From: Opitutia bacterium
GTDB lineage: Bacteria; Verrucomicrobiota; Verrucomicrobiia; Opitutales; UBA953
DNA: 43,601 nucleotides
Direction of reading: 5' to 3'
Assembly: GCA_947377865.1 (NCBI GenBank)
Contig: CANCHK010000016.1
Location: 1-43,601 of the forward strand
The notes under the pieces were generated by a model. The model had not been told where the DNA came from. It saw only the letters and a program-made list of their open reading frames with translations, and did not search any database. The stretch's first letter is position 1, and the number at the start of each line of letters is the position of its first letter. This document shows, piece after piece, positions 3,307 through 42,452 of the stretch. The position numbers and the translations under genes were made by a program.

Positions 3307-3339
3307 AAAGAAAGAGGGCCGGCATCCCTGCCGGCCCTC
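3307..3339 (-). terminator. Terminator of the porin gene
   Basis: Read on the minus strand, a 10-bp perfect stem (3314-3323 with 3330-3339, gagggccggc / gccggccctc) with a 6-nt loop is followed by a broken T-rich tract (3307-3313). It lies 27 nt past the porin stop codon. Confidence 0.8.
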
Positions 3340-3366
3340 GTTGCTATGAAGCTAACCGGTCAGGCC

Positions 3367-4794: not shown

Positions 4795-4826
4795 GGGTGT
4801 TGGTGCGGTTATGCGAGCGGACTATC

Positions 4827-4848
4827 TCATCCTATTGTTACAGGATGA
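4827..4848 (-). promoter_or_regulatory. Inverted repeat in the porin upstream region
   Basis: A 7-bp inverted repeat (tcatcct / aggatga) with an 8-nt spacer lies 33-54 nt upstream of the porin ATG. It could be an operator half-site pair or a 5'-leader hairpin. No convincing Pho-box spacing is visible, so phosphate control is not claimed. Confidence 0.35.
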
Positions 4849-4904
4849 AGACGGTCCGGTGAAGAAACTGCCTTAAAGCCAGCACCCCTAGACAGCTACG
4901 CCCG

Positions 4905-5771: not shown

Positions 5772-5776
5772 GGTGC

Positions 5777-6964
5777 TCACTTGGGCAGAAAGGAGGCGAC
5801 CCATTCGGCCGGCGTAGAGCCAGACTGAGCGGATAGCATGCGCAGGAGTTCGCCGGCATCCGCCACGGCCTGCGCACGGGGGCCCGGGGTTTCGACGCAC
5901 TCGCGCAGGCGGGCGGCTAAGGGCGCGGGCTCGCAGGCTCCTTGGAGATATTCAGGCCACGCCTGTCGCTTCAGGAGGATGTTCGCGATACCGAGATTAT
6001 CGACGCGGCCAGCAATCAGGCGACGGCCAACAATCCAGGTGAGCGGATTGGCCCGGTAGACCACGGCGCCGGGAATTCCCGCGAGCGCGACGGTCAGCGA
6101 CATCGTGCCGGAACTGACGAGCGCGGCGCAACCGACGGCCGGGCCTTCGGAGACCGGGCGCAGGTCGATGCCCTTGGCCTGGTCGCCGTATTCGGCCAGC
6201 AGGCGATAGAGTTCCGCATGCACTTCGCCGCCGGTATGCAGCACCAGGGCACGACGCTTGGGATGATCCTTACGGAAGAGCGCGAATGCCTCGACCAGCG
6301 CGGGGAAGATCTTACGAACCGGCTTCGGTCGGCTGCCCGGCAACAGCAGCACCGGACCATCGGGGTCGTACTTCAAGCCGTGCTGATGGTCGGACTCCGC
6401 GAACGGGTGACCGACGAAACGGGCGTCCAGCTTGGTGTCGGCGTACACCGCCGGCTCGAACGGGAAGATCGTGCCGACGCTGTCTAGGTCGCGCGCCATG
6501 GTGAAACGGCGCTTAGGTTTCCAAGCCCAGAGCTGCGGGCTAACGTATTGGATGACGGCGGTCTCGCCGAAACCGGCACGCGACAGGCCAGCCTTGCGCA
6601 GTTCATTCGCGAGGCGGAGATTGAGCCCGGGGTAGTCGACAAGCACCACGACTTTAGGCTTCCACCGCGTGGTCCAAGAGACCATGCGGGCGAACAACCG
6701 ACGATAGAAAGGATAGGCTGAGAGGATTTCCACGATACCCACGGCAGAGAACGTGGTCATATCCATGAGCAGCTGAGCGCCGGCGGCGCGCAACTGGGGC
6801 CCGCCGAACGCGGCGATGCGCAGCCCGGGTCGGGCCTGGAGTAGTTCAGCAACGACCTTGGCGGCATGCTGGTCGCCCGAATGCTCGCCGGCCACCACGA
6901 GGACATCGACCTCGCCCGCGCGGGGTCGGTCGAAGCTTGCTGGGATGGTCGGGAAGGCACTCAT
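5777..6964 (-). CDS. lpxB: Lipid-A-disaccharide synthase
   Basis: This family-19 glycosyltransferase joins UDP-2,3-diacylglucosamine to lipid X, forming the beta-1,6 disaccharide of lipid A at the inner face of the inner membrane. The 395-residue protein shows VVAGEHSGDQHA near the N-terminus, the LVDYPGLNLRLA segment, QYVSPQLWAWKPKR, FPFEPAVY, FVGHPFAE and LLLPGSRPKPV. All are conserved LpxB blocks. Its ATG overlaps the TGA of the upstream oxidoreductase (ATGA), indicating translational coupling. The other Raetz-pathway genes are not in this window. Confidence 0.93.
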   Translation of the reverse strand: MSAFPTIPASFDRPRAGEVDVLVVAGEHSGDQHAAKVVAELLQARPGLRIAAFGGPQLRAAGAQLLMDMTTFSAVGIVEILSAYPFYRRLFARMVSWTTRWKPKVVVLVDYPGLNLRLANELRKAGLSRAGFGETAVIQYVSPQLWAWKPKRRFTMARDLDSVGTIFPFEPAVYADTKLDARFVGHPFAESDHQHGLKYDPDGPVLLLPGSRPKPVRKIFPALVEAFALFRKDHPKRRALVLHTGGEVHAELYRLLAEYGDQAKGIDLRPVSEGPAVGCAALVSSGTMSLTVALAGIPGAVVYRANPLTWIVGRRLIAGRVDNLGIANILLKRQAWPEYLQGACEPAPLAARLRECVETPGPRAQAVADAGELLRMLSAQSGSTPAEWVASFLPK

Positions 6965-7905
6965 TTGCGCGTCATGCCGGCGCGGATCTGTTCGGTGATT
7001 TGGATGGCAACTTGCAAGGCAGTCCGGCCGAGCTCACCGCTGACCTTCGGGCTCTTACGTTCGCGGACGCAAGCGGTGAACGAAGCGAGCTCGATGGCGA
7101 GAGGCTCTCCCTTCTCAATCGGAATCTCTTCCTTGGCGAAGCCACCCTCGGCGGTCGGGTCGACGCGCACGGTGTGTCCCTTCTGGCCCATGAAGTCGAT
7201 GGAGAGGTAGCCGCCGGTCTGAAAGACGCGGATCTCACGGTTCTTCTTTAGCGAGACGCGGCTGGCGCTCAGGTTGGCGACGCAACCGTTCTTGAAGGCG
7301 ATGCGGGCGTTGGCGATGTCCTCGGTCTTGGTCACGACCGAGACCCCAACGGCATCGATGCGCTCGACCGGCGAGTTAGCAAGCTGCAGGACGATACCGA
7401 TATCATGAATCATCAGGTCGAGCACCACGCCGACCTCGGTACCACGTGGGGTGAAAGGCGCCAGCCGCTCGGCGGTGATGTAGCGCGCGTCGGTGACGGC
7501 CTTCTCGAGGTATGACATCACGGGGTTATAATGTTCGATATGACCCACCTGGACGATGCGATCGGCCTTGGCGGCAGCATCCAGGATCTGGGCGGCCTCC
7601 TCAAGGGTGACGCAGATGGGCTTCTCGATCAGGAGATGCACACCCTTGGCGAGCAGCGGCAACGCCACGGCGGCGTGATGGTTGGTCGGGACGACGACGC
7701 TCACGGCGTCGCAACCGGCGGCCATCTCGTCGAGGGTGGCGAAGCGATGGCAGTTATGCTTGGCGCAAATCTCGGCCGCACGGGCGTCGTTCGGTTCAAA
7801 GATACCAGCGAGTTCGGCGCCGGGTAGGGTCGAGTAGATGCGGGCGTGGTGCTGGCCGAGCGAACCCGTGCCGGCCACCCCGCAGCGGATGCGCGTAGCG
7901 GTCAT
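6961..7905 (-). CDS. Gfo/Idh/MocA oxidoreductase coupled to lpxB (GnnA-like candidate)
   Basis: The 314-residue NAD(P)-dependent sugar oxidoreductase has the Rossmann motif GVAGTGSLGQHH (about 9-20), the EKP signature (94-96, LLIEKPICVT), GHIEHYNP and DLMIHDIGI with the likely catalytic His. The start at 7905 gives the fold at the N-terminus; longer in-frame extension would overlap clpB. It begins 31 bp after the clpB stop and overlaps lpxB by 4 bp. UDP-GlcNAc 3-dehydrogenases (GnnA) of this family sit beside lpx genes in bacteria making GlcN3N-type lipid A, so a lipid A role is inferred. The partner aminotransferase GnnB is not in this window, and the exact substrate is unproven. Confidence 0.82.
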   Translation of the reverse strand: MTATRIRCGVAGTGSLGQHHARIYSTLPGAELAGIFEPNDARAAEICAKHNCHRFATLDEMAAGCDAVSVVVPTNHHAAVALPLLAKGVHLLIEKPICVTLEEAAQILDAAAKADRIVQVGHIEHYNPVMSYLEKAVTDARYITAERLAPFTPRGTEVGVVLDLMIHDIGIVLQLANSPVERIDAVGVSVVTKTEDIANARIAFKNGCVANLSASRVSLKKNREIRVFQTGGYLSIDFMGQKGHTVRVDPTAEGGFAKEEIPIEKGEPLAIELASFTACVRERKSPKVSGELGRTALQVAIQITEQIRAGMTRK

Positions 7906-7936
7906 GGCCCCAGACTCCCTCGGGCTACGGCTTCCT

Positions 7937-10534
7937 TCAATCCGAAAACCCGCCGGGCTTGACCTCGAAGCCGAGGCTGTCCTTCGCCCGCTTGACGCGG
8001 ACGAGGCTGCCTTCGGGGATTTCGCCTGCCAGCATGGCTTGGGCGAGCGAGGTCTCAACTTCACGCTGTAGGTAGCGACGCAGGGGGCGCGCGCCATAGA
8101 CAGGATCGAAGCCCTTCTCGGCGATGAGGGCCAAGGCGGTCTTGTCGAAGTCGAGGCGGATGCGCTTGACCGCAAGACGCTCGTTGAGGCCGCGGAGCAT
8201 AATGCCCGCGATGGCGGCGACCTGCTCGTGCCCGAGCGGCTGGAACAGCGCGATGTCATCAATGCGGTTCAGGAACTCCGGACGGAAGTGGGCGCGGAGG
8301 TCCGCCATAACGGATTCGCGGACGCTGTCCGTGAGTCCGAAGCCAGCATGCTCGGCGATATGCCGGCTGCCGATATTCGAAGTCATGATGAAGATCGCAT
8401 TCCGGCAATCTACGGTGCGACCCTGCGAATCGGTCAGGCGACCGTCGTCCAAGACCTGGAGCAGGATATTGAATACTTCCGGATGCGCCTTCTCGACTTC
8501 ATCGAGAAGCACGACGGCGTAAGGATGGCGACGGAGGGCCTCGGTTAGCTGGCCGCCTTCCTCGTGTCCGACGTAGCCGGGAGGCGCGCCGACGAGACGG
8601 GACACGGCATGCTTCTCCATGTATTCCGACATATCGATACGGATCATCGACTTCTCGCTGTCGAAGAGTTCGGTCGCCAGCGCCTTGGCGAGCTCGGTCT
8701 TGCCGACACCGGTGGGGCCGAGGAAGAGGAACGAGCCCACGGGACGACGCGGATCCTGGACGCCAGCGCGCGAACGCTGCACCGCTTCGGCAACGACGCG
8801 CACAGCCTCTTCTTGCCCGACCACGCGGGCCTTAAGGTTGTCAGCCAGGCGCAGAATCTTCTGGCGCTCGCCTTCGAGCAGCTTGCTCACGGGCACGCCA
8901 GTCCAGCGCGCAACCACTTCGGCGATTTCTTCGGGCGTGACGGTCTCACGGAAGAGGCCGGTTGCCGACTTTGCGGTGCCCTCGAGTTTGGCGACCTCCT
9001 TCTCAAGGTCGGGAATGGTGCCGTAGCGGAGCTTAGCGACTTCCTCCAGCTTGCCGGCGCGCTCGGCCTTGACCATCGCGGCCTTGGCGTCCTCGAGCTG
9101 AGCACGGGAGGCACGGACCTTCGTGACCGCTTCCTTGTCCGCCGTCCAGCGGGCACGGAAAGCGGTCTGCTCCTCGCGCCCAGCGCCGAGTTCCTTGCGG
9201 AGCACGCCGAGGCGAACCTTGGAGGCATCGTCCTTCTCGTTCTTGAGGGCGGATTCCTCGACCTCGAGCTGGAGCACACGGCGATTCAAGGCGTCGAGTT
9301 CGGAAGGCACGCTGTCAATCTCCGTGCGGATCTGGGCGCAGGCCTCGTCGATGAGGTCGATGGCCTTGTCCGGCAAGAAGCGGGCGGTGATGTAACGGTC
9401 GGAAAGCGTGGCGGCCTCGACGAGCGCGGCATCTTCGATGCGCACGCCATGGTGGACTTCGAATCTTTCCTTGAGGCCGCGGAGGATCGACACCGTATCA
9501 GGCACGCTCGGGGGCTCGACCAGGACCTGCTGGAAGCGACGCTCGAGCGCCGGATCCTTCTCCACGTGTTCGCGAAATTCCTTCAGCGTAGTGGTGCCGA
9601 TGCAATGCAGCTCGCCGCGGGCCAGCATGGGCTTGAGGAGATTGGCAGCGTCCATCGCGCCGTCGGCCTTACCAGCGCCGACGAGCGTGTGCATCTCGTC
9701 GATGAAGAGAAGGATGCCGCCCTCGGCAGACTTAATCTCATTAAGAACGGCCTTGAGGCGTTCCTCGAACTCACCGCGATACTTGGCCCCAGCCACGAGA
9801 GCACCCATGTCCAGGGAGAAGAGCGTCTTGTCGCGTAGGCTTTCCGGCACGTCTCCATTGACGATGCGCTGGGCGAGACCTTCGACGACGGCGGTCTTAC
9901 CGACGCCGGGTTCACCGATGAGCACAGGGTTATTCTTTGTGCGGCGGGAAAGAATGCGGATGACACGACGGATCTCCTCATCGCGACCAATGACAGGGTC
10001 CATCTTCCCGGTGCGGGCAAGCGCGGTCAGGTCCTGGCCATACTTGGCAAGAGCCTCGTAGGTAGCCTCGGGGTTAGCCGAGGTGACGCGCTGAGATCCG
10101 CGCACGGCCTGGAGCGCGGCGAGGATTGCCTTACGATCGAAGGCGACGGCAGCGAAAGCGGGACGGAGCGAAGGTGTCTCAGCGAGGGCGAGCAAAACAT
10201 GCTCGGCCGACACGAAATCATCCTTCATGGATTCGGCTTCGTCCTTGGCCTTGAGCAGGAGCGCATGTGTCTCCGACGATAGACCGGGCTGTCCCGTGGA
10301 CTGGGCGAGCTTAGGAAGACGCGCCAGCTGGCCGGCGACAGCGGACGCGAGCGCCGCCTCGTCCTTGCCGGCGCGACGGAAGAGCGAGGAGGTCACGCCG
10401 CCCTCCTGGGTCAGGAGGCCGTGGAGGATGTGCGCCGGCTCCAGCGAAGGATTGCGGCGCTGCATCGCCTCGCTCTGCGCCTGCTGGAGGGCTTCGGAGG
10501 TCTTTTCGGTAAGGTTGCCGTAGGGGGAGGACAT
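7937..10534 (-). CDS. clpB: ATP-dependent disaggregase ClpB
   Basis: ClpB is a hexameric AAA+ chaperone that extracts polypeptides from aggregates together with DnaK. The 865-residue protein has the Clp N-domain repeats (about 1-145), a first AAA+ module with Walker A GEPGVGKT (207-214) and Walker B LLFIDEMH, and a coiled-coil middle domain (about 405-525, Glu/Lys/Ala-rich). The second AAA+ module has GPTGVGKT (606-613), the pore loop GAPPGYVG and [11 protein letters not shown]. The C-terminal D2-small domain has [12 protein letters not shown]. The middle domain and length distinguish it from ClpC and ClpA. I see no CIRCE element or convincing heat-shock promoter in the 214-bp divergent upstream region. 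It leads the run into the oxidoreductase, lpxB and epimerase. Confidence 0.95.
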
Positions 10535-10748
10535 GCCTTCATAGATGCACCAATCGTTCCAAGCCGCAGGGCGGATTCAGGCCTCAAACCGAAGCCTATC
10601 GAAGGCAAAGCGAGACATCCCAGCGACAATGCGTCCCTTGGGCGACGAGTTGTCGCTTTCCTTCCCGCCAGTCCGTCAACCCCTAAAAGACTCGGCCCGC
10701 CGGACTCCCTTGTTGCCGTAACCCTCTCGCCATCGGTAGAAAAGCCGC

Positions 10749-11594
10749 ATGACGCATGTAGCGGAGCTGGCGAGCTTGGAGCGCTTACTCGATGACCCCT
10801 CCCCGGTCGTCCGCCTCGCCGTGCTCAGCAGGATCAAGGCCGCTGGACTACCGGGAGTCCTTTGGCTCGAAGGCCTAACGAAAGACGAGAACCTCGCGAC
10901 CCATGCCCGGGTCTTGCTGGCCGACCTACGCACTCCCGAGACCGCCACTCACTCCTTCCTCGCCCACATCCGTGACCCGCACTGCGACCTAGAGGAAGCC
11001 TGTCTCCTACTCGAACGGGCCACCGAGCCATCCTTAGCCGACGACGCCTACTCCACGGAACTGGACCGGATTGCCGAGCGTACCCGCGAACTCATCGCCG
11101 AACCGCTCGACGTCCGTGGGAAGTGCCGCCTGCTCTGCCGTGTAATCTTCGGCGAAGAAGGCTACCGTGGCGCCCAGGAAAGCTTCGCCGTCCCGTCCTC
11201 CTCCCTTCTTTCGCATGTCATCCGCAGCCGACGCGGCATCCCGATTTCGCTCTGTCTGATTTTCCTCCTCGTGGCCCGCAGGCTCGGCCTGCCCGTCGAG
11301 CCCGTCGGCCTGCCCGGAAGATTCATGGTTGGCATCTTCCGTGGACGAGAGCCGCTCTACATCGATTGCTACGAAGGGGGCGCCTTCCGCACCCGCGCGG
11401 AAGTCCAACTCCTGCTGCTCGACAACCAACTGCCCGCGGACGAAGCCTTTCTATTACCAGTGACCACACACCAGACGCTTGCGCGCTGCTGCCGTAACCT
11501 GGTCTCGCAATTCGAAGCCCAAGGCGACGACCGCAGCAGCCGCCTGTTCCTGACTTTTGTCCACGCCTTAGAAAAGACCGATGAGCGCGCCTGA
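10749..11594 (+). CDS. SirB1/YchA-like transglutaminase-fold protein
   Basis: The 281-residue protein has the SirB1-type core: SLLSHVIRSRRGIPISLCLIFLLVARRLGL followed by VGLPGRFMVG and YIDCYEGG. This resembles the transglutaminase-like superfamily found near prmC and in stress loci. The N-terminal 90 residues are helical and HEAT-like (LASLERLLDDPSPVVRLAV). The C-terminal LARCCRNLVSQFEAQGD segment resembles the helical tail of the family. The biochemical role is not established. The gene is divergent from clpB and overlaps aroE by 14 bp, so it is likely co-transcribed with aroE and the prepilin peptidase. Confidence 0.75.
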   Translation: MTHVAELASLERLLDDPSPVVRLAVLSRIKAAGLPGVLWLEGLTKDENLATHARVLLADLRTPETATHSFLAHIRDPHCDLEEACLLLERATEPSLADDAYSTELDRIAERTRELIAEPLDVRGKCRLLCRVIFGEEGYRGAQESFAVPSSSLLSHVIRSRRGIPISLCLIFLLVARRLGLPVEPVGLPGRFMVGIFRGREPLYIDCYEGGAFRTRAEVQLLLLDNQLPADEAFLLPVTTHQTLARCCRNLVSQFEAQGDDRSSRLFLTFVHALEKTDERA

Positions 11595-28828: not shown

Positions 28829-31800
28829 TTATTTGAGCGTCTTGAGGTAAGCGAAAAGGTCCGTGACCTGTTCGTCCGTGAAGCCGTCGAGCAAGCCTTC
28901 CGGCATGAGCGATCGACGCAGGTATTTGGCCGACGCCACTTCGGCCTTCGGCACGCGACGATCGGCGCCACCGGGCTGACGAAGCACGTAGGCCGTCGCG
29001 TCCTCTGAGACGTAGAACGCCTCGATGACCTCGCCGGCCTTGAGCTTGACCTGGAAGATGCGATAAGCGGCCTCAATTGCAGCGTTCGGGTCGATGATAT
29101 TACGGATGACGGCTTCCATACCCATTGCGCCGGCGCCCGAAAGATTAGGGCCGATGAGGCCGCCCTGGCCGTTGATCATGTGACAGGACTGGCAGAGCGC
29201 GACGACGGCCTTGCCCTTGGTAGGGTCGCCGGTCTTCGACGCGAGCGCAGTGTAGCGGGCGGTCTTCTTCTCGAGGGCAGCGAACTGCTCGCCATTGAGG
29301 AGCGGCGGCGCATCCGTGGTACGCAGGATCTTGGCGCCCTTGCCGAGCTTATCCCAAGCGGTATCGCCGCTGGCCGAAGCAAAGACGAGCGACTCCGGGA
29401 GTTTTTCGCCGGCGAAGGTCCGGGTCATGTTCGTGCGGACTTCCGCTGGCTTGCGCTCAATGTTCCAGATGCGGTATTCAGCGAAAGCGCCCTGAGTTCC
29501 ACCCGACGGCGTCGACCACCCGATTGTCAGTCCCCGAAGGTCGTGGGCTTGGGCTGACTTCGCAGTGCCGGTCAGCTCACCATCCTGGTAGGTGCGCAAG
29601 ATGCCGGCAGCGTCACGCGTCAGGGCGACATGAGTCCAAATGCCAGGTGAGATTGGCTTCGCGGAGACGACCGCATCGCGGATTGTGCCGCCCATGTAGG
29701 CACGGAAGACGCCGCCCGCGAAATTAAGGTCCAGCACGCCCGGGGCGCCGAGGATGCTGTCGTTGTTATCGACCTTGCCGTCCAGGCGCACCCACGTCTC
29801 CACGGTAAAGGCGCCTTTGAGTACGAGGCCGGACTTGGCGACAGCGTCATTGGAGCCATCCAGGGTCAACACGCTGCGGAACACGCCCCCAAGTTGGGCG
29901 GACACATTTGCGAGCTCGGGACTGTCACCCAGGGCGATGGCGAGTTTCTCGGCGACGGGAATTTCGATGTCGGCGAGCGCGACAGACTTGTCAGCCAGGC
30001 CGGAGGCGATGGCCTTGGCGCCGGCCTTGGTACCGCTGATACCGTCGAGGACGACCTTCCGGTCATTCACGGAAAGCGTCGGGTAGAGCTTCATCGCGAG
30101 TGCGGAAGCCTGCGCCGAACGGGAAGCAACCAAGGCGCGCAGGGCAAGGCTCGACACCTCCGACGACGACTTGCCGACAAGTAAGGCGATAGCTTCGGGC
30201 TTGGTCGTACGCAGTTGCTGAAGTCCGGCCAGCGCATCGCGACGGGAATCCTCGAGGGAGAGTAAGGCAAGCAGGTCATCCTCGAGAGAGAGGAGCTGAA
30301 AGCCACCAATAAGCTGGGCGGCCTGGGCGCGTTCGGCGACGCCCTGAGTGAGCAAGGCCTTGGCAGCCTCGGCGACGACGGGGCCGACCTTGGCCGGATC
30401 GAGGTCAGTACGAGTGACGAGCAGGAGCTCCACGACACGGCTGCGGACGGAGGCGTCGGCCAGGAGCTTGCGCAGCACGGCGACACTGGCCGGCTGGTCT
30501 AGGGTCTTGGCGACGGCGAAGAGCTCGTCTGGTCCAGGAGCGCGGTTCAGCTGACCGACCAGTTCGGCAATGAGAGGTGCGCCGACCTTCGGGTCGAGCG
30601 CAAGCGCAGCGAACATGCGTCCTTCGGCGGGTAGCGACTTGGCTTCCGGCGAAGCCAGGAACGTCGCCACGGCCTCGGGCTGACGCTCGAGATACATGCG
30701 GATAAGGAAGCGCTCGAAATCACGCTCATAAGCGACGCCAACCTTGATCGGCTTGCCGCGGCGATCCGGGGCGACGGGACCTTCGAGGGAAGGTCCGGCG
30801 AAGCGCATCAGCACGCCGAGCGCGGCGGGGTGCTTCGCGGAAGCTTCTCCGAGGGCCTTGATGGCGGCGGCGCGGACCTCGGCGTCGGCATCGGCGGAGA
30901 GCGCGGCGAGCGCCTCGAAATGGGGCGACCATACTCCGAAATGGCGCAGGGCGTTCACGGCTTCTCGGCGGACGTTGCGATTTGGATCGGCGAGGAGACG
31001 CATTGCCAGAGGTCCGATCTTGTGACCGTGCTCGGCGAGGACCCAGAGGGCTTGGATGCGGCGGGCGGGCGAAGCGGAAGCGTCGTCCGCGATGATAGTC
31101 AGCGCGCGGGTCGTCGCTTCGTCGGTGTCGCGGCGATCGGCCAACGTCTGCCAGGCGAGGTGAGCATCAGCGGTCACCTTGGAGCCTAGGCGGGCGACGA
31201 GATCAGAGGAGGAGAGCTTGGTGTAATCCGGCACAACCTGCGGAACGAAGCCCTTCGGCTTGATGCGCCAGATGCGGCCGGACTGCTTGTCGCGGTCAGG
31301 GTGGTTGCGGGCGACCTCATTATGGCTGATGATCTTATTATACCAGTCGATGACGTAGAGACAGCCGTCCGGACCCATCGTCATCGCGATTGGACGGAAG
31401 AACGGGTCATCGCAGCTGACGAAGTCATCAAGGTGCTCGAGGCGATAGCCGGAACCTTCGCGATACTGACGGATCGCGTTGACCTTCGAGGTGATTGGGT
31501 TGGCGACATACATCACGCCGTCGTAGCCCTTCGGCCAGACGCTGACATCAGAGAGCGCCAAACCGCTGAGGCCGGTGCCGCCCATCTTGAACTCGGGTGC
31601 CTGGATTGGAAAAGGCGGCTGGTAGGACTTCGCCAGACGATCCGCGCAACCAGGGTAGAGCGCGTATTCATGGAACGGCATCACCGGGTAGCCGAAATCG
31701 TTGGCCTCCTGGATGAAACATTCCCCTTCGCCGGTGAGCACGAGGCCCCAGATGTTGCAGGGGCCGACACTGGTGGGCTCGAAGAAGCTGCCGTCGGGAC

Positions 31801-33085
31801 GGAAGCGAGCCATACGCGTGCTAGGGAAATCGACTTGATCGCCTTTCGTGGTAATAACCGTACCCTTATTGAAGGCCCCTTGCGCGAGCCACATCCAGCC
31901 GAACGGAGCGCGGGTGAACTGGTGCGGAAAGAGGTGCGAATCCTGCACCCCGAAGCCCGTCAAGAGGACCTCGCGCTTGTCCGCCTTGCCAGTACCAGCG
32001 GTGTCACGAAGAAAGACCACGTCGTGTCCGTGCTGCACGATGGCGCCATCCTTGTAAGGCAGGACGCCTTCAGGAATCGCGAGGCCATCGGCGTAGGTGC
32101 GCGGCTGATGCAGTCCGGAGGAAAACGGCTGGTCGAAGACGATGACCTTGTCGCGGGCCTTGGACTTATAGAGCGCCTCGGCGGCGACAGGGTTTTCGTT
32201 GGCGTCGACCGGGTATTCCAGCGCGGTACTGGACCACGCCCTGCCCTGCTGGTCGAAGATCAGCATGATGAACTTGCCAAAGTCGGCGGACTCCTTGGCG
32301 AAGAGCTCGATTTCGAAGCCCTCCGGGAGCTTGAATAACTTCTGCTGGTCTTCGGCGGAACGTCGAACGCCCTGCACGTTGTTGTAGCTTGTGTCCTTCT
32401 TTGCCGGAGCGGCGGCCTTGGTCGGCTCGGCCTTCTTTTCCGTCGGCTTCACCTTATCCCAGGTCAGCGCGCCCGGCGTCGGCGGTAGTTCTTCGATCGT
32501 GATATCCTTGGCCTGAACCTCGGCCATACCTCCGGCGTGAATCTGGATTCCAATCTTACCGTCAGCCGCGATGTTCTCCTCGGCCTCGACATAATCCAAG
32601 GCCGGAACGCCATTGACCCAGCTGCGGATACGATTCCCTTCGGCGAGGATACGGTATTCGTTCCATTCGCCCTCCTTAACCGCGGCAAGCACGGCGGCAG
32701 CGTCCTTCGACTCGGCGACGACCTTATTACGTCGGCTCTCGTCGTAGAGCTTGCCATACCAACCTTTGCCGTAGTCGACCTGATAGCCACTCATCTCCGA
32801 GCTGTTCGGGACGCGCACGCTGCGCATCTGGATGCCACTGTTCACGAAACCTGTTCCGGTCAGCCGTAGTTTGACGCGCAGATCGAAATTCTGATAGGAT
32901 TTCTCGGTCGCGAGGAAGAAGTTCTTCGGCACCTTCTCCTTGAGGGAGCCGCCGCGGATCTCGCCGGCCTCGACGCGCCACCAAGCGGCGTCGCCCTCCC
33001 AGCCGGCAAGGGTCTTCCCGTCGAACAGGGAAACCGGAGCAGCTTGGACGGTCAGGGCGAGGAACAGGGCCAGGAAGCAGCGCAT
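28829..33085 (-). CDS. Exported mosaic: DUF1080 + PVC membrane-bound dehydrogenase propeller + HEAT + LamG-like + cytochrome c
   Basis: The 1418-residue protein starts with a signal peptide (1-16). A DUF1080 domain follows (about 18-200: LFDGKTLAGWEG, NSGIQMRS, YQVDYGKGWYGKLYDE) and then a Lys/Ala/Pro linker (about 210-232). The PVC-type dehydrogenase beta-propeller (about 240-615) contains ADGLAIPEGVLPY, DSHLFPHQF and GPDGCLYVIDWYN. HEAT-like helical repeats (about 640-1010), a LamG/concanavalin jellyroll (about 1069-1220) and a c-type cytochrome complete it, with CQSCH at 1298-1302 and a likely Met ligand at 1394 (SLMPEG). DUF1080 proteins include 3-keto-disaccharide hydrolases; propeller-cytochrome pairs pass electrons from sugars or alcohols to haem. 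Both activities in one chain is my inference. The ATG at 33085 is set by the signal peptide. Confidence 0.85.
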   Translation of the reverse strand: MRCFLALFLALTVQAAPVSLFDGKTLAGWEGDAAWWRVEAGEIRGGSLKEKVPKNFFLATEKSYQNFDLRVKLRLTGTGFVNSGIQMRSVRVPNSSEMSGYQVDYGKGWYGKLYDESRRNKVVAESKDAAAVLAAVKEGEWNEYRILAEGNRIRSWVNGVPALDYVEAEENIAADGKIGIQIHAGGMAEVQAKDITIEELPPTPGALTWDKVKPTEKKAEPTKAAAPAKKDTSYNNVQGVRRSAEDQQKLFKLPEGFEIELFAKESADFGKFIMLIFDQQGRAWSSTALEYPVDANENPVAAEALYKSKARDKVIVFDQPFSSGLHQPRTYADGLAIPEGVLPYKDGAIVQHGHDVVFLRDTAGTGKADKREVLLTGFGVQDSHLFPHQFTRAPFGWMWLAQGAFNKGTVITTKGDQVDFPSTRMARFRPDGSFFEPTSVGPCNIWGLVLTGEGECFIQEANDFGYPVMPFHEYALYPGCADRLAKSYQPPFPIQAPEFKMGGTGLSGLALSDVSVWPKGYDGVMYVANPITSKVNAIRQYREGSGYRLEHLDDFVSCDDPFFRPIAMTMGPDGCLYVIDWYNKIISHNEVARNHPDRDKQSGRIWRIKPKGFVPQVVPDYTKLSSSDLVARLGSKVTADAHLAWQTLADRRDTDEATTRALTIIADDASASPARRIQALWVLAEHGHKIGPLAMRLLADPNRNVRREAVNALRHFGVWSPHFEALAALSADADAEVRAAAIKALGEASAKHPAALGVLMRFAGPSLEGPVAPDRRGKPIKVGVAYERDFERFLIRMYLERQPEAVATFLASPEAKSLPAEGRMFAALALDPKVGAPLIAELVGQLNRAPGPDELFAVAKTLDQPASVAVLRKLLADASVRSRVVELLLVTRTDLDPAKVGPVVAEAAKALLTQGVAERAQAAQLIGGFQLLSLEDDLLALLSLEDSRRDALAGLQQLRTTKPEAIALLVGKSSSEVSSLALRALVASRSAQASALAMKLYPTLSVNDRKVVLDGISGTKAGAKAIASGLADKSVALADIEIPVAEKLAIALGDSPELANVSAQLGGVFRSVLTLDGSNDAVAKSGLVLKGAFTVETWVRLDGKVDNNDSILGAPGVLDLNFAGGVFRAYMGGTIRDAVVSAKPISPGIWTHVALTRDAAGILRTYQDGELTGTAKSAQAHDLRGLTIGWSTPSGGTQGAFAEYRIWNIERKPAEVRTNMTRTFAGEKLPESLVFASASGDTAWDKLGKGAKILRTTDAPPLLNGEQFAALEKKTARYTALASKTGDPTKGKAVVALCQSCHMINGQGGLIGPNLSGAGAMGMEAVIRNIIDPNAAIEAAYRIFQVKLKAGEVIEAFYVSEDATAYVLRQPGGADRRVPKAEVASAKYLRRSLMPEGLLDGFTDEQVTDLFAYLKTLK

Positions 33086-35814: not shown

Positions 35815-37407
35815 TTAACGGGTGGCCGCGAGTTCCTGCATGGCACGGACGGCCATCAGCTCGCAATTGAACCACATCGCCCCGGGCGGAAGCATGACCC
35901 ACGTCTGGTAACGTCCGGGTGCCTTCACATGTGACTGCGTCTGCGCCAAGGTGGCGCCCAGCGCCCTGGCCTTCTCGAGATGCAGGCGGTCACCGGTCGC
36001 ACGCCACGCGGCGAGATAGGTACGGATGAGCTTGGCGGAACTGGCGCAGACCGGGGCGTAGCACCGATACTGCTCGAGGACGCAAGGCAGCAGCCATTTC
36101 CTGGCCTTGCCGCCGGCGGCGCCATCAGCGCTCTGGCTGACGGGCGTATCCTTAGGAGGCTGAGCCCAGATCACGAACTGATCTTCGGCGTAACGAAGAA
36201 GCTCCAAGGCCAACGCCAGCTCCTCCGGCTTCCGCTCCTTCTGCTCGAACAGGTGGAGCGCGAAATCACAGGCCTCGTGCTTCGTCATGTTCTCATACGC
36301 AGGCAGAGGCCGGACATCCTCGAACTGGCCCTGCCAGTTCCAGTTCCGCACAGGATTGGCCATGATCCACGCGAGGGCGCGGGTGCGCACCGGCGCGAAA
36401 CGCGGCTCGCCGGTGACGACTTCGAGCTGATCGAGGAAGCCGACGACGCCGGTCGGCACGAGCACGTTGGGCGAGGCGGGCTTGCCGTCCCGGGGATTGA
36501 CGAAGAGCGACCAACTCCCTTCGGGTAGCTGGGTCTTCTCGTAAGTGGCTGCGATGCGGACGGCCGCATCGAGATAACGGCGATCCTTCGTCGCCGCATG
36601 GACATCGAGCAGATAGCGGCCCGTTTCGGCGCCGCAATTCGTCAGGTAGTTGCCGGCCGACATGTGGCCCTTGAGCCGATCACGGTACAGCGTGGGATGG
36701 TAAGTCGGCGGATGACCCGCCCAGACGGCATCATCCGGGAAAGACATCGACAGGAGGTAATCGGCCGCGCGCCGGGCGGCAACCAGCGCCTCGGTGGCGT
36801 CCGCGGGCGCAGGTTGCTGGGCCGCGTAGGTCGCCAAGGCGGAAGCGGCGGCACCGACGATCTTCGAGGGATAGCGATAAAGGATGAACTGCGGCTCAGG
36901 CTGACCGGAGCCGAACCAGCAGCGCAGATCCGGAGAGTGGACCAAGGCGGCGAGCGCCCGGGCGGGACCCGCGGGATCGACCTCACTAGCAACCGGAGAG
37001 GCGAAGGAGGCCGCGCGATGGAATCTACGACTCGAAGGTCCACCGATGACCACGTCAGCGGTATCCACACCTTGGACGACCAAGGACGCCGGCCCGATCG
37101 CCACGGCGGTCCAGATAGGCGTAAGCGGCACCGTCGGCTTAGGGCCGAAAAAAACGTGCTCGCGTCCGGCCGAATCCTTCAACGTGAATCGGTAACGTAC
37201 CGCACCCGCGACTTCCGGCAGATCAAAAGCGGGAGCGAAGAGAAACTGCACCGCATGGCCATTCCACGCCGGCTGACCGCCGGCCACAAAAGGCCTGACC
37301 GGAGTCGCCGTTTCGGCTAGCGCACGCTTCACCAAGTCATCGGGCGCCTCGGCCGCATGGACCATGCCAAGGCAGGGAAACAGTAAAGCGACGAAGAGGG
37401 CTCGCAT
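35815..37407 (-). CDS. Secreted protein of unknown function, helical-barrel-like
   Basis: The 530-residue precursor has a Sec signal peptide (about 1-19, ending in VHA). A beta-rich segment (about 25-130) precedes a long helical region (about 140-520) with repeated aromatic and Ala-rich helices, such as ETGRYLLDVHAATKDRRYLDAAV and LRYAEDQFVIWAQ. This resembles (alpha/alpha) toroid carbohydrate enzymes such as six-hairpin glycosidases or lyases. I cannot place it in a named family and claim no activity. The start is the signal-peptide ATG. It follows the symporter by 5 bp on the same strand. Confidence 0.65.
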   Translation of the reverse strand: MRALFVALLFPCLGMVHAAEAPDDLVKRALAETATPVRPFVAGGQPAWNGHAVQFLFAPAFDLPEVAGAVRYRFTLKDSAGREHVFFGPKPTVPLTPIWTAVAIGPASLVVQGVDTADVVIGGPSSRRFHRAASFASPVASEVDPAGPARALAALVHSPDLRCWFGSGQPEPQFILYRYPSKIVGAAASALATYAAQQPAPADATEALVAARRAADYLLSMSFPDDAVWAGHPPTYHPTLYRDRLKGHMSAGNYLTNCGAETGRYLLDVHAATKDRRYLDAAVRIAATYEKTQLPEGSWSLFVNPRDGKPASPNVLVPTGVVGFLDQLEVVTGEPRFAPVRTRALAWIMANPVRNWNWQGQFEDVRPLPAYENMTKHEACDFALHLFEQKERKPEELALALELLRYAEDQFVIWAQPPKDTPVSQSADGAAGGKARKWLLPCVLEQYRCYAPVCASSAKLIRTYLAAWRATGDRLHLEKARALGATLAQTQSHVKAPGRYQTWVMLPPGAMWFNCELMAVRAMQELAATR

Positions 37408-37412
37408 GTCGC

Positions 37413-38726
37413 TCAGGCCACGTCGGCCTTGCGCTCGTGCGCATCGACGACGACCGTGGTGACGAGGTCTGAGCCGACGTTCGTCATCGAGCGGGCCATG
37501 TCCAGAATCCGATCGACGCCGAGCACGATACCGATGCCTTCCGGCGGAATGCCAAAGGTGACTAGCAGGCCAGCGATGAGCGGCAGGGAGCCACCGGGGA
37601 TACCCGCGACGGCGACGGCGCTGAGCACGGATAGGAACAACAGTGTCAGTTGCTGGGCGATCGTGAGGTCGACGCCGAAGACCTGCGCGACGAAGAGCAC
37701 CACGCAACCCTCATACAAGGCCGTGCCGCTCATGTTCATGGTCGTGCCAAGCGGAAGCACGAAGCCGGCCACGCTCGGCTTGAGGCCGAGCGTGTTCTTG
37801 GAGCACTCCAACGCAGCCGGTAGGGTCGCGTTGCTTGAACTCGTCGAGAAGGCGGTGATCAGCACGCCGCGGATATCGCGAAAGAACTCCAGCGGTTTAC
37901 GATCGGTCCAGAGACGGAGCCAGAGCGACATGGTACCGAAGAGATGGAACAACATGACCGCGAGGCAACCGAGGGCGAAGACGCCGAGGGCGATCAGGAT
38001 ATTCAGGCCGATCTTGACGATGACGCTGTAGATCATCAACGGCACGGCATAAGGGGCGAGCTTCAGGGCGATCTGCACGATGCCGGTCATGAGCTCGGCG
38101 ACCAGGTCGAGCGCGCCCAGCAGCTGTTGCCGTTTCGCTTCGGGCAACTGCGTACCAACGACACCGACGAGCAACGCAAAGAGGATCAGCGGAAGGACAT
38201 CGCCGATCGTGCCATTGGTGTGGCCGACGACGGCTCCGAAGAGATTCTTAGGCATGAACATCTCGACCAACCCGGCGAGATCGACGGACGGGGTGGCCGC
38301 GGAGGTGGCGACGTGCTTCTGGGCGGCGCCACCGAATTCCTGCATCAACATCGTCTTCGCCGCGGGATCCAGATGATCGCCGGGACGAAGGACATTCATC
38401 ATCAATAGGCCAAGGCCTACGGCGATGGCCATGTTGAGGAAGAATAGGGCGAACGTACGGCCGGCGAGCGGCCCGAGGCGATCCAAGCGGCCGAGCTGGG
38501 CGACGCCGGCAGCGAGCGAGGCGAACACCAGCGGGATCACCACGAAGAAGAGGAGACGCAGGAAGACCTGACCGAACGGATCGAAGACATTCGTCGCGAC
38601 CTTGCGCATGAACACGAGGGACGACGGCGAATAGTGGCCGACGGCGAGGGTGAGGAGGCCGGCAAGGACGCCGAAGAGCAATCCGTAGAGGATACGGTTA
38701 GCGAGAGGACGATTAGTTTCGGCCAT
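37413..38726 (-). CDS. Dicarboxylate/amino acid:cation symporter (DAACS)
   Basis: The 437-residue membrane protein has the family re-entrant loop motif SSSNATLPAALECSK, the GTTMNMSGTALYEG motif and a C-terminal VLGVDRILDMARSMTNVGSDLVTT segment. These define the glutamate/aspartate/dicarboxylate:Na+ or H+ symporter family. The solute (glutamate, aspartate, malate or succinate) is not decidable. The ATG at 38726 is preferred to an upstream in-frame GTG. It is divergent from the DUF1080 gene, sharing a 57-bp region that contains an inverted repeat (cataggg / ccctatg). Confidence 0.88.
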   Translation of the reverse strand: MAETNRPLANRILYGLLFGVLAGLLTLAVGHYSPSSLVFMRKVATNVFDPFGQVFLRLLFFVVIPLVFASLAAGVAQLGRLDRLGPLAGRTFALFFLNMAIAVGLGLLMMNVLRPGDHLDPAAKTMLMQEFGGAAQKHVATSAATPSVDLAGLVEMFMPKNLFGAVVGHTNGTIGDVLPLILFALLVGVVGTQLPEAKRQQLLGALDLVAELMTGIVQIALKLAPYAVPLMIYSVIVKIGLNILIALGVFALGCLAVMLFHLFGTMSLWLRLWTDRKPLEFFRDIRGVLITAFSTSSSNATLPAALECSKNTLGLKPSVAGFVLPLGTTMNMSGTALYEGCVVLFVAQVFGVDLTIAQQLTLLFLSVLSAVAVAGIPGGSLPLIAGLLVTFGIPPEGIGIVLGVDRILDMARSMTNVGSDLVTTVVVDAHERKADVA

Positions 38727-38783: not shown

Positions 38784-39524
38784 ATGCCCCCCATGAAAGC
38801 CCTGCCCTGCCTTCTAATCGCCTGCCTGAGCCTTGGGGCCGCCGAAGTCGGCCCGCCCAAGCCCAAGCAGACCATGCCAGTGCCTTCCGCTGAAGAGACC
38901 CTCGGTTGGAAGCCGATGTTCGACGGCCAGACGCTCAAAGGTTGGACCGGCGACCCGAAGTATTGGCGCTGCGAAGGCGGCATAATCGTCGGCGAGATCA
39001 CGCCTGAGACCATCGTGAAGAACAACACTTTCATCATCTGGGACGGTGCCTTGCCAGGCGACTTCGAGCTCAAGGCGGAGTACCGCATCACGGAACGCGG
39101 TAACAGCGGCATTAACTATCGCAGCACCTACGTCGACGGGTTGCCTTTCGCGTTGACCGGCCCGCAGGCGGATATCGATGGCCAGAACAAGTACACCGGA
39201 CAGAACTACGAAGAACGCGGTCGCACGTTCAACGCGCTCCGCGGACAGATCACGCGCGTGCGTCCCGGACAGAAAGCCGAAGTCATCGGTTCGGTCGGCG
39301 ACCCGAAAGAGCTCGCGGCCTTCATCCGCAACGGCGACTGGAACGAATACCATCTCATCGTCCGAGGCGGCACACAGGTACACATCCTCAACGGCCATGT
39401 CATGAGCGTGGTCATCGATGACGAACCCGCCGCTCGCCACCCCGAAGGCAAGATTGGCGTCCAGGTGCACGTCGGCCCGCCGATGAAGGTCGAATACCGC
39501 AACATGCGCGTCAGGCAGCCCTGA
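38784..39524 (+). CDS. Secreted DUF1080 protein (3-keto-disaccharide hydrolase family candidate)
   Basis: The 246-residue protein has a signal peptide (about 1-20, LLIACLSLGAAE) and one DUF1080 jellyroll with LFDG-like MFDGQTLKGW, the NNTFIIW segment, ERGNSGINYRS, NEYHLIVRGG and EGKIGVQVHVGPPMKVEYRNMRV. DUF1080 proteins include enzymes that cleave 3-keto-glycosides by elimination. The ATG at 38784 or 38793 could be the start. It is the stand-alone counterpart of the DUF1080 domain in the mosaic at 28829-33085, and precedes a secreted nitrilase-like gene by 47 bp. Confidence 0.82.
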   Translation: MPPMKALPCLLIACLSLGAAEVGPPKPKQTMPVPSAEETLGWKPMFDGQTLKGWTGDPKYWRCEGGIIVGEITPETIVKNNTFIIWDGALPGDFELKAEYRITERGNSGINYRSTYVDGLPFALTGPQADIDGQNKYTGQNYEERGRTFNALRGQITRVRPGQKAEVIGSVGDPKELAAFIRNGDWNEYHLIVRGGTQVHILNGHVMSVVIDDEPAARHPEGKIGVQVHVGPPMKVEYRNMRVRQP

Positions 39525-40862: not shown

Positions 40863-41627
40863 TCAGGCGAGCTCCACCGAGATCGCATCCCAAAGGGCGA
40901 TGCGCGACTCGATGGCGGCGACGGAAGCCTCGGCGGCTTCGGCCCACTTACGATCGTCATCGCCGCAAAGCAGCTCGACCATGCGAAGCGAGATGACTCC
41001 GTGGTGGCCGCCATCGACCTCGATGTGTCGTTCGAGGTAATAGCGGAAGGTGTCGAGCTTGCCCGGGTATTCGCGGCTGAGTCGCGTGACCAGTTCGGTG
41101 AACATGTCGGGAATCAGGTCTTCTCGACCAAAGGTGAAGGCTGCGGCCACTTCGTGCGACTTACCGTTCGTCGCCAGGGCGAAGGTCGAGCCGGAGAAGG
41201 CGGCGGCACCGGACGAGACACCAGCGGAAACGAGAGCGGCGGCGGTCGAGCCGCCCGACCGAACCGAGGAGAGGGCCTTATCGACCGCTGAGGTATCGGC
41301 GCCGGCCTCGTGCATGGCGCGCAGGTAGAGATCGAAGTGAGCGATGCGACCGCCACGCGGATCAACGTCGGACTCCTCGCCACAGACAATTTCATTGATC
41401 AGGAAGCGGACTTCGGCATCGCCGAGCGGCACCCAAGGGACGGTCACGCAGGTGAGGTCGCGCTGCAGGCGCTTCAGCAGCGACATGAAATCCCAGACCG
41501 CAAAGACATGCGAACGCATGAACACGCGGACGTCGTCGAGCGAGGCCATCCTCGCGTAAAGCGGATGCGCGAGTAGCCGCTGGCGGGCGGGCGCGATGCG
41601 GGCACGGACGAGGTCAAGTCGACTCAT
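40863..41627 (-). CDS. DUF3050 family protein, haem-oxygenase-like fold candidate
   Basis: The 254-residue protein matches DUF3050 in its opening FMRSHVFAVWDFMSLLK (about 36-52), NEIVCGEESD (79-87), IAHFDLYLRAMHEAG (95-109) and YYLERHIEVDGGHHG (197-210). The histidine/acid pattern, including H97, E159, H201 and D205 followed by H208/H209, resembles haem-oxygenase-like diiron proteins, so a metal-dependent oxidase is possible. No function is established. The start at 41627 begins the conserved region; the much longer open frame upstream runs through the opposite-strand gene and is rejected. Confidence 0.78.
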   Translation of the reverse strand: MSRLDLVRARIAPARQRLLAHPLYARMASLDDVRVFMRSHVFAVWDFMSLLKRLQRDLTCVTVPWVPLGDAEVRFLINEIVCGEESDVDPRGGRIAHFDLYLRAMHEAGADTSAVDKALSSVRSGGSTAAALVSAGVSSGAAAFSGSTFALATNGKSHEVAAAFTFGREDLIPDMFTELVTRLSREYPGKLDTFRYYLERHIEVDGGHHGVISLRMVELLCGDDDRKWAEAAEASVAAIESRIALWDAISVELA

Positions 41628-41730
41628 GCCAACGAACTTAACAGGTTCCACGTAAAAGCAAGCGGGCGAACTCCGAGCCATCATCCAGACAGTCGAATCT
41701 GAAACATAAGACTTTATAGCGCCGTCAACC

Positions 41731-41742
41731 TGAGTTAACTCA
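41731..41742 (+). promoter_or_regulatory. 12-bp perfect palindrome at the start of the jellyroll gene
   Basis: TGAGTTAACTCA is a perfect palindrome 5 nt upstream of the ATG at 41748, covering the ribosome-binding-site position. It may be an operator or simply a base-pairing hairpin; no clear -35/-10 pair was found around it. Confidence 0.35.
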
Positions 41743-41747
41743 TCGCC

Positions 41748-42452
41748 ATGCCCCGTCTCCTCGCCCTGTTCTGCCTGACCGCCATCACCCTGCCGGCCGA
41801 AGACTCCGGCAAGCTCATCTTCTCTGACGATTTTCAGCGCGCCGAATCGCAGGAAACGAAGGATGAGCCCGGGAACGGCTGGGGCACGAACAGCGCCGGT
41901 CGCGCCAAGAACAACAAGCAGGTCGACCTCCGCGACGGAGCGATGTATATTTATATCCATAAAGAGGCCAACCACGCCGTCTCCGTCACCCACCCTGCCG
42001 TCTTCACCGACGGTGCCGTCGCCATGCGCTTCATGCTCGAAGACGCGAAGGACAGCCTCGGCCTCGATTTCGCTGACATGGAATGCAAGACCGTGCACGC
42101 CGGCCATCTCTTCAAAGCCACCTTCGGAGCCAAGGGCGTAACCCTGGCCGACCTCAAGACCGGCAACATGGACCTGAAGATCCAGGAAGCCCGCCTCGCC
42201 AAGACCTTGACGAAAGAACAGACCGCCGCCCTTAAGGAAAAAGAAAAGTCCTTCTCTTGTCCAATCGAGATCGGCAAGTGGCACGAATTGACCGTCAAAA
42301 TCGTAGGCGATGAAATTTCGGCCGCCGTGGACGGGAAAGACGTCGGGAACCTTAAGTCCCCCGGCATCGCGCACCCGACCAAGCAGATGCTTCGCTTGTC
42401 CGTGCCGCGCAACGCAGTCGTGGATGACGTAAAAATCTGGTGCAGGAAGTAA
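41748..42452 (+). CDS. Secreted jellyroll-like protein (DUF1080/LamG-type fold)
   Basis: The 234-residue protein has a signal peptide (about 1-17, LLALFCLTAITLPAE). Its beta-rich body resembles concanavalin-type jellyrolls: LIFSDDFQRAES at the N-terminus, a GKWHELTVKIVGDEISAAVDGKD segment and a closing VVDDVKIW. These are the edges seen in DUF1080/LamG-like secreted proteins of Verrucomicrobia and Planctomycetes. Activity is unknown; carbohydrate binding is plausible. It is convergent with trmL, with 12 bp between stops. Confidence 0.7.
   Translation: MPRLLALFCLTAITLPAEDSGKLIFSDDFQRAESQETKDEPGNGWGTNSAGRAKNNKQVDLRDGAMYIYIHKEANHAVSVTHPAVFTDGAVAMRFMLEDAKDSLGLDFADMECKTVHAGHLFKATFGAKGVTLADLKTGNMDLKIQEARLAKTLTKEQTAALKEKEKSFSCPIEIGKWHELTVKIVGDEISAAVDGKDVGNLKSPGIAHPTKQMLRLSVPRNAVVDDVKIWCRK

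Follow-up and report, generated by a model that had tools for sequence, protein, structure and literature searches.

Gene, domains and relatives

The window, meaning the whole stretch of 43,601 nucleotides that was analysed, carries on its minus strand a gene for a single five-domain chain (Table 1). The sequence-only reading had described an exported chain of DUF1080, a PVC-type propeller, HEAT repeats, a jellyroll and a CQSCH cytochrome c with a Met ligand, and every named domain is found by profile, all above the curated cut-offs of their profiles. Two structure models reach pLDDT values of 87.0 and 86.3 and pTM values of 0.66 and 0.73. In the second model, built without haem, the loop after CxxCH (residues 1304-1311) has a pLDDT below 50. 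The fold match of the LamG domain, 4dqa, is a putative carbohydrate-binding protein. A scan for promoters and terminators gave nothing exceeding shuffled sequence.

Table 1. Features of the five-domain gene, with positions in the window.
Feature	Residues	Position	Strand	Basis
Whole gene (P0001)	1-1418	28829..33085	-	ATG at 33085, stop at 28829-28831; genus orthologues of equal extent
Signal-peptide-like N-terminus without lipobox	1-16	33038..33085	-	reading by eye
DUF1080 / 3-keto-disaccharide hydrolase domain	18-197	32495..33034	-	PF06439, 1.5e-35, 123.4 bits (cut-off 26.8)
D115-E-S-R-R-N motif		32726..32743	-	D115, E116, R118 and R119 invariant in 60-row alignment; motif also in 4jqt
Linker	198-243	32357..32494	-	residues 214-230 with pLDDT <50; flexible, length varies among relatives
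PVC-type propeller	244-611	31253..32356	-	PF23500 DUF7133, 7.3e-58; TIGR02604 (PVC-type haem-binding protein), residues 256-612, 2e-39, 136 bits (cut-off 122.2); most conserved part
C443	443	31757..31759	-	aligns with Arg of the R-N pair found in some PVC propellers; Cys 38/60, Asn 22/60
HEAT-repeat helical region	612-1060	29906..31252	-	HEAT_2, residues 670-746, 8.7e-10; least conserved domain
LamG / ConA-like jellyroll	1077-1216	29438..29857	-	PF13385 Laminin_G_3, 4.1e-19; fold match 4dqa
c-type haem domain	1286-1416	28838..29230	-	TIGR02603 (haem-binding domain), 9e-34, 116.4 bits (cut-off 68.15); Cytochrom_C, residues 1290-1345, 2.8e-8
Haem attachment motif CQSCH	1298-1302	29180..29194	-	both Cys and His in 60/60
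M1394, likely distal haem ligand	1394	28904..28906	-	alignment with 7zs0; Met in 59/60, one gap

Relatives were retrieved with two propeller peptides and the best 80 of 274 were kept, a selection biased towards full-length matches; all five parts lie in one frame in 70 of these 80. Eight of the other ten are truncated by contig ends and two are frameshifted. This rules out a chance fusion or an assembly artefact. The gene or a fragment of it is present in 33 of 37 genomes of the genus, and full-length matches beyond the genus share 42-52% identity, ruling out an oddity of one genus. The survey of domain order proposed in the sequence-only reading thus finds the order kept well outside the genus. 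Columns conserved to at least 95% make up 35% of the propeller, 25% of DUF1080, 24% of the haem domain, 17% of LamG, and 8% of the HEAT region. In one relative (L066, genome G223) the two halves are encoded by two genes. Its interpretation as an ancestral two-gene state was rejected, as each half groups with fused relatives and the second gene begins with a signal-like sequence of its own; the arrangement appears to be a secondary split.

Haem domain, DUF1080 domain and propeller

The haem domain holds the only CxxCH of the chain (C1298, C1301, H1302). M1394 is aligned to a Met of 7zs0, the residue exchanged in the variant entries 7zs1 and 7zs2, and is on this basis the likely distal ligand. 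The entry 7zs0 is Kustd1711, whose haems are described as His/Met in the available text of its source (PMC11791136). Large verrucomicrobial c-type haem proteins are also represented by the PSCyt cytochromes with carbohydrate-binding modules, some of which contain Laminin_G_3 (PMC5615132). The PSCyt/PSD proteins otherwise have domains different from those described here, and that text never mentions DUF1080.

The closest solved relative of the DUF1080 domain is 4jqt (BT3469), with 4.3e-41 by profile and the first rank by fold. D115, E116, R118, R119, N142, N158, Q181 and H183 are common to both, including the DExRRN and QxH residues of 4jqt. Further fold matches are BT2157 (3osd) and entries titled 3-keto-glycoside eliminase/hydratase (8rr2, 9fbe) or 3-keto-2-hydroxy-glucal hydratase (8tda, 8v31). 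Judging from these titles, the presumed activity is better put as eliminase/hydratase than as "hydrolase". In contrast to the window protein, these relatives contain DUF1080 singly or in tandem, and their aligned chains lack a propeller or haem. In the available text of PMC9007349, BT2157 is called a 3-ketotrehalose hydrolase, and a Caulobacter DUF1080 protein is proposed as partner of LacABC in lactose use. The same text also contains points against 3-keto chemistry in the window protein, namely the DUF1080 endo-xanthanase/lichenase THTE_1561 and ten Pedobacter DUF1080 genes for which no lactose phenotype was found. The fold shared by DUF1080 and CBM66 in the fold search points the same way, and the two designations overlap in the accessible part of PMC5673643.

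The propeller retains D382, H384, H388, E460, N462, D463, D580, K584, H588, E590, R598 and D599 in 60/60 relatives. By fold, it matches 5d9b, which we take to be of the SMP-30 type (TM 0.59, E 2.4e-5), ahead of the PQQ sugar dehydrogenase 3a9g (TM 0.62 of target, E 9.3e-5, 14% identity); identities to propeller enzymes amount to 11-14%. Counting against sugar oxidation, a sequence search with the propeller against the PDB gave no match. Up to an E of 1, the profile matches of the window protein included no PQQ sugar dehydrogenase family, and of two paralogues searched against the PDB, L164 matched sGDH weakly (E 0.17 and 0.18), while L169 matched no PQQ enzyme.

The sGDH enzymes carry an R-N motif. 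The position aligned with the PQQ-binding Arg of sugar dehydrogenases, mapped through a paralogue alignment and this motif, is Cys or Asn in 60/60 relatives. None of 33 genus genomes gave a match to pqqC, in a search in which no control matched either. Both results weigh against the main reading given below. Across the phylum, pqqC was matched in 8 of 288 genomes at 0.001 and in 6 of 288 above the cut-off, all six belonging to one other family. PQQ may also be taken up from outside the cell. The proposed sugar dehydrogenase function of the propeller is not supported by the PQQ features, and by fold 3a9g and 5d9b match about equally. If the propeller oxidises sugar, it probably does so without classically bound PQQ. 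An instructive comparison is the AA12 pyranose dehydrogenase CcPDH, which likewise joins a propeller, in this case sugar-oxidising, and a haem domain in one chain (PMC6881789). CcPDH differs as a PQQ enzyme with haem b and PQQ-binding arginines, such as Arg430 ahead of the conserved Asn431, and without DUF1080 (PMC6881789).

Repeated fusion and the C8 paralogue

A single ancestral fusion for all DUF1080-propeller proteins is rejected on both domain trees. Placing the fused rows in one clade gives a p-AU of 1.0e-5 on the DUF1080 tree (22 vs 32 rows, 5 changes) and of 2.6e-5 on the propeller tree (21 vs 26 rows, 4 changes), both trees being of the "quick" kind, with the split L066 counted as fused and long branches such as L031 included. 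By these trees, DUF1080 has been united with haem-bearing propellers more than once. ThuA takes part in similar combinations: L069 is ThuA-DUF1080, L074 is propeller-cytochrome-ThuA, and L119 of Haloferula rosea is a six-domain ThuA-DUF1080-propeller-HEAT-LamG-cytochrome protein.

The window's genome encodes a further paralogue, C8, with the order DUF1080-GDSL-propeller-HEAT-cytochrome. Its DUF1080 is placed beside those of the window family with a support of 81, and the two may share an origin. The genome's one Gluconate_2-dh3 match, a protein with a Tat signal, lies between a GMC oxidoreductase and the C8 paralogue, all on the same strand. The dehydrogenase of the LacABC system is a GMC flavoprotein, and LacB is a cytochrome. 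Of the 33 genomes of the genus with a Gluconate_2-dh3 match, 19, this one included, have it less than 1 kb from such a paralogue among the matches listed and compared by eye, and the closeness is not seen in the other 14. LacABC-type GMC and Gluconate_2-dh3 genes are absent beside the window gene itself. The flanks of the 80 five-domain loci (up to 9 kb, often less) yielded no relative of the C8 GMC enzyme, a result against the main reading. For an S9-like gene of the C8 group, 4 of the 80 loci contain a nearby relative with 58-59% identity. In the available text of PMC9007349, LacABC lactose 3-dehydrogenase and DUF1080 combine oxidation and cleavage in one Caulobacter pathway, as proposed here, though from separate genes and without a propeller, whereas the window protein is one chain with a propeller.

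Possible oxidative glycoside cleavage and its alternatives

The window protein is tentatively read as cleaving glycosides oxidatively (via 3-keto forms) in the periplasm, combining C3 oxidation, cleavage by DUF1080 and electron transfer by haem, with a probability of roughly 45%. Following its presumed export, the propeller, perhaps together with the LamG domain, would bind a glycoside, which would then be oxidised at C3, possibly by the propeller itself. DUF1080 on its flexible linker would cleave the 3-keto-glycoside by elimination and hydration, and the C-terminal haem would pass electrons toward the respiratory chain. Through this tether the keto intermediate would be locally more concentrated; the two sites are unlikely to be joined by a fixed channel. 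A role in C3-oxidative cleavage is likely because of the repeated DUF1080-propeller fusions, the ThuA fusions and the LacA/LacC-type genes beside the paralogue, which also strengthen the link to 3-keto-glycosides drawn from sequence alone. The claim of a "self-contained" oxidative glycosidase is supported in part: the domains and the invariant polar residues in both candidate active parts agree with it, while the Cys or Asn at the PQQ Arg position, the failure to find pqqC in the genus, the variable flexible linker and the one two-gene relative do not. The linker and this relative likewise lend no support to propeller and DUF1080 sites that face each other. Among 45 more distant loci, many of which have short flanks, 15 show an AraC-type regulator gene within 3.5 kb, with one representative confirmed; this favours the main reading. 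At the genus loci, ArgS, HemW and MIP18-like neighbours, housekeeping by eye, count against it, as does the 75.66% completeness of the source genome.

E. coli BL21(DE3)pLysS carries lacZ. This strain was the production host of Lac161_ORF7 (AGW45552), a 109 kDa beta-galactosidase of a soil Chthoniobacter-like bacterium with TIGR02604, HEAT_2 and cytochrome c parts; the available text reports that the purified protein releases glucose from lactose with a Km of 1.8 mM, noted by its authors as LacZ-like (PMC5342196). Compared by description rather than alignment, it has the TIGR02604 propeller, HEAT_2 and TIGR02603 haem domain in common with the window protein, and it acts on a disaccharide in vitro, an activity that favours the main reading. 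No DUF1080, LamG or electron acceptor is named in that text, and action without a DUF1080 domain or a named acceptor speaks against the main reading. Paludisphaera borealis is described as having 18 propeller proteins homologous to it (PMC5352709, available text). The activity of Lac161_ORF7 would also suit a reading of low probability in which hydrolysis is done by the propeller (metal-dependent, SMP-30-like or of another kind), with a CBM66-like binder in DUF1080 and haem serving something else. The rank of 5d9b as the best propeller-only match among the best 50 of each fold list and the CBM66 fold agree with this, but the 4jqt polar residues are retained in DUF1080, the haem domain is conserved as much as DUF1080, and the activity of Lac161_ORF7 may stem from contaminating host LacZ.

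Somewhat more plausible, though still doubtful, is an electron relay and cleavage module, in which the 3-keto-glycoside comes from a separate LacA/LacC-type FAD enzyme, the fused haem stands in for LacB, DUF1080 cleaves, and the propeller binds substrate or partner. The C8 gene group, its recurrence in the genus with one Gluconate_2-dh3 match per genome, the S9-like gene and the tie between LacABC and DUF1080 in lactose use all point in this direction. This evidence comes, however, from the paralogue rather than the window family, extends to part of the genus genomes, and finds no GMC counterpart at the five-domain loci; moreover, the propeller is conserved beyond the needs of docking alone. 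The binding character of LamG and HEAT and the weak propeller matches would also suit a scaffold, or a periplasmic redox protein of another kind, whose DUF1080 and LamG merely bind glycans without sugar chemistry. The twelve invariant charged or polar propeller residues argue against this, and it appears about as improbable as a hydrolytic propeller.

A more far-reaching form of the oxidative reading, itself a doubtful one, is a respiratory glycosidase in one exported chain: a non-PQQ propeller wired to its own c-type haem would oxidise C3, followed by elimination in the tethered DUF1080. The numerous PVC propeller-cytochromes would then be variations on it in which ThuA, a GDSL esterase or binding modules take the second place. 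No description of a DUF1080-propeller-cytochrome chain was found in the search listings and main-text passages of openly readable papers.

Propeller-cytochromes are numerous in Verrucomicrobia and form a large group of haem proteins. The loci fetched from the incomplete 2.3 Mb genome contain 26 frames with a match to the propeller profile and 20 with a match to the haem profile, some of these matches being partial, and 28 DUF1080 matches are listed, 22 of them above the cut-off. The repeated unions with DUF1080, together with ThuA and the LacA/LacC-type genes of one gene group, point to a respiration-coupled breakdown of glycans by C3 oxidation. As relatives occur in Chthoniobacter flavus, Haloferula rosea and Brevifollis gellanilyticus, among others, the idea is testable in named isolates. 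If it is true, these bacteria would already gain electrons when a glycan is first cut, and they could degrade more than their glycoside hydrolase counts suggest.

Architecture and spread of the five-domain gene

The window gene is a real and conserved multi-domain fusion. Its frame, with an ATG start, encodes 1418 residues, in which DUF1080, propeller, HEAT, LamG and haem domains all score above curated model cut-offs in profile searches, confirming the domains and the order read from the sequence alone. By eye, the N-terminus resembles a signal peptide but has no lipobox. AlphaFold2 models of residues 17-1216 and 219-1418 reached a mean pLDDT of 87.0 and 86.3 (pTM 0.66 and 0.73), respectively.

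The genome search covered 57 genomes, 37 of them from the genus. The whole gene or a fragment, with at least 66% identity, is present in 33 of these 37, as a full-length single frame in 19; weaker matches only were found in G006, G010, G018 and G030, genomes that are 74-93% complete. Matches at ≤1e-60 occur in 26 of 273 genomes of the order, spanning 7 of 88 genera. Scanning GTDB contigs with two propeller peptides yielded 274 relatives, the best 80 of which were kept. Among these best 80 of 274, 70 have the five parts in a single frame, in a few cases with a shortened end part, eight are cut by contig ends and two are broken by frameshifts. The same order is found as a one-frame chain in relatives, and not as separate domains only. 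Titles among the best 80 include Opitutae, Verrucomicrobiales, Chthoniobacter flavus, Haloferula rosea, Brevifollis gellanilyticus and two Planctomycetota bins.

Fusion copies with internal stops or frameshifts, reflecting either decay or assembly error, were seen in G016:C25, G021:C24, L138 and L149. Over alignment columns 1-200 the orthologues L048 (G002) and L062 (G163) share 99-100% identity, and beyond them 38-91% per block, a sequence mosaic that suggests recombination. In 10 close relatives (best 80 of 274 loci), an opposite-strand DUF1080 frame lies upstream of the fusion.

Features of the window, its genome (G000) and related loci
Location	Strand	Feature	Observation
28829-33085	-	window gene	five-domain chain
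35818-37707	-	630-aa frame	no Pfam match found at 0.001
38784-39524	+	second DUF1080 gene	stand-alone
40866-42374	-	DUF3050 protein	weak, sub-cut-off similarity to haem-oxygenase-like iron enzymes
G000:C8, about 3149-11485 (L030:2150-10486)		S9-like hydrolase, GMC oxidoreductase, Gluconate_2-dh3, DUF1080-GDSL-propeller-HEAT-cytochrome fusion	apparent operon; DUF1080 and propeller both over cut-offs
G000:C5		DUF1080-propeller-cytochrome	TIGR02604 66.7 bits, below cut-off
G000:C73		DUF1080 and propeller, cut by contig end	propeller below cut-offs
L020:1333-3003 (G000:C30)		two adjoining DUF1080 frames	grouped in tree with full support; likely tandem duplicate
L109:2999-8380		five-domain chain	extra C-terminal Mala_s_1-like domain
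L110:8887-14355		five-domain chain	extra C-terminal Mala_s_1-like domain
L119:1614-6956 (Haloferula rosea KCTC 22201)		ThuA-DUF1080-propeller-HEAT-LamG-cytochrome c	six domains, one frame

Other fusions, links to 3-keto-glycoside metabolism and a published activity

The matches listed for the window's own genome comprise 28 for DUF1080 and 39 for TIGR02604; some of these 39 are fragments of a single frame. Apart from the window gene, DUF1080 and propeller are joined in three more frames (C8, C5 and C73). A single clade of all fused rows was rejected on the DUF1080 tree (p-AU 1.0e-5) and on the propeller tree (p-AU 2.6e-5; C73, too short, was left out). These tests were run after inspection of the trees, with the fused group defined by the trait and the split locus L066 counted as fused.

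The C8 fusion is preceded by a GMC gene and a Gluconate_2-dh3 gene with a Tat signal, all on one strand. By analogy, the group looks like a LacABC variant in which cytochrome and keto-glycoside enzyme are fused; an excerpt of PMC9007349 connects LacABC with DUF1080 in lactose utilisation. Gluconate_2-dh3 has one match each in 33 of 41 genus genomes. In 19 of these 33 it lies <1 kb from a DUF1080 of the C8 fusion's kind (lists compared by eye), and in the other 14 no such neighbour was found among the matches listed, several being on another contig. ThuA, known from an operon whose paper title (Ampomah 2013, as cited in an excerpt of PMC6683767) names 3-keto derivatives, is fused with DUF1080 in L069, with propeller-cytochrome in L074 and with the whole chain in L119. 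Neighbours of the five-domain gene in the genus look by eye like housekeeping genes; near 45 more distant ones are genes for AraC-type regulators (15 loci), UPF0261 (8), Dabb (8) and PEP_hydrolase (6), and for every family a single representative was verified.

Lac161_ORF7, likened to the window protein by domain description, shares its propeller, HEAT and cytochrome domains. According to excerpts of PMC5342196, it was produced in E. coli BL21(DE3)pLysS and, given lactose, it freed glucose (Km 1.8 mM, kcat 13.2 per s), and the Lac161 cosmid was functional in S. meliloti, not in E. coli. A requirement for aerobic cytochrome c maturation could explain this host difference. Because BL21(DE3)pLysS carries lacZ, the Lac161_ORF7 activity must be read with possible contamination in mind.

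Predicted functions of the domains and their tethering

The DUF1080 domain has 4jqt (BT3469) as top match in the profile search (4.3e-41). Fold-search matches include 4jqt, 3osd (BT2157), 8tda, 8v31 (titled 3-keto-2-hydroxy-glucal hydratase), 8rr2 and 9fbe (titled 3-keto-glycoside eliminase/hydratase), and likewise CBM66 binding modules. The 60-row alignment shows no variation at D115, E116, R118, R119, W141, N142, N158, Q181 and H183. These residues are not general among 30 aligned own-genome DUF1080 rows, which places the domain by sequence in a 4jqt-like subgroup. Judged by these positions, the domain is not eroded; it likely cleaves 3-keto-glycosides. The protein's single CxxCH is accompanied by M1394. 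This residue lines up with a Met of 7zs0, the entry for the dihaem cytochrome Kustd1711, whose haems have His/Met ligation (excerpt of PMC11791136), and two variant entries carry Cys and His in place of that Met. The haem likely carries electrons.

For the propeller, proposed as the sugar oxidiser, no PDB sequence match was found. Fold matches are weak: the SMP-30-type protein 5d9b (TM 0.59-0.62 of target) and the PQQ sugar dehydrogenase 3a9g (0.62). An R-N pair is kept in some distant PVC propellers of the own genome, one of which has a weak match to soluble glucose dehydrogenase (E 0.17-0.18); at the Arg position of the pair, the 60 rows of the window family show Cys (38) or Asn (22). CcPDH has two arginines, Arg430 and Arg621, that bacterial PQQ glucose dehydrogenases also keep, as stated in an excerpt of PMC6881789. 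A pqqC model matched none of 33 genus genomes, where the control gave no match either; at 0.001 it matched 8 of 288 phylum genomes, with six above the cut-off and all six from one other family. PQQ could be supplied from outside. With the PQQ-type Arg replaced, fold matches weak and pqqC not found, "dehydrogenase" is a name rather than a result. Nevertheless, D382, H384, H388, E460, N462, D463, D580, K584, H588, E590, R598 and D599 are identical in 60/60 rows and therefore look like an active site. It is possible that the propeller makes the keto-sugar, though with no known cofactor.

Columns at least 95% conserved across the 60 sequences make up 35% of the propeller, 25% of DUF1080, 24% of the haem domain, 17% of LamG, 8% of HEAT and 5% (2/41) of the DUF1080-propeller linker. 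This linker is a tether rather than a rigid joint, because the gap between the two matches spans roughly 22-90 residues among relatives and residues 214-230 have pLDDT <50 in the AlphaFold2 model. In G223 (L066) the two halves are adjacent genes: the first stops at TAA, and the second has a GTG start a few bases later and its own signal-like N-terminus. In the trees, the G223 propeller falls beside two of the fused relatives (99, starred) and its DUF1080 joins one of these (81, not starred), suggesting a recent split. The self-contained reading is supported only in part. That no keto intermediate escapes is still conjecture, and a linker that is flexible and has once been split argues for a loose tether between DUF1080 and propeller.
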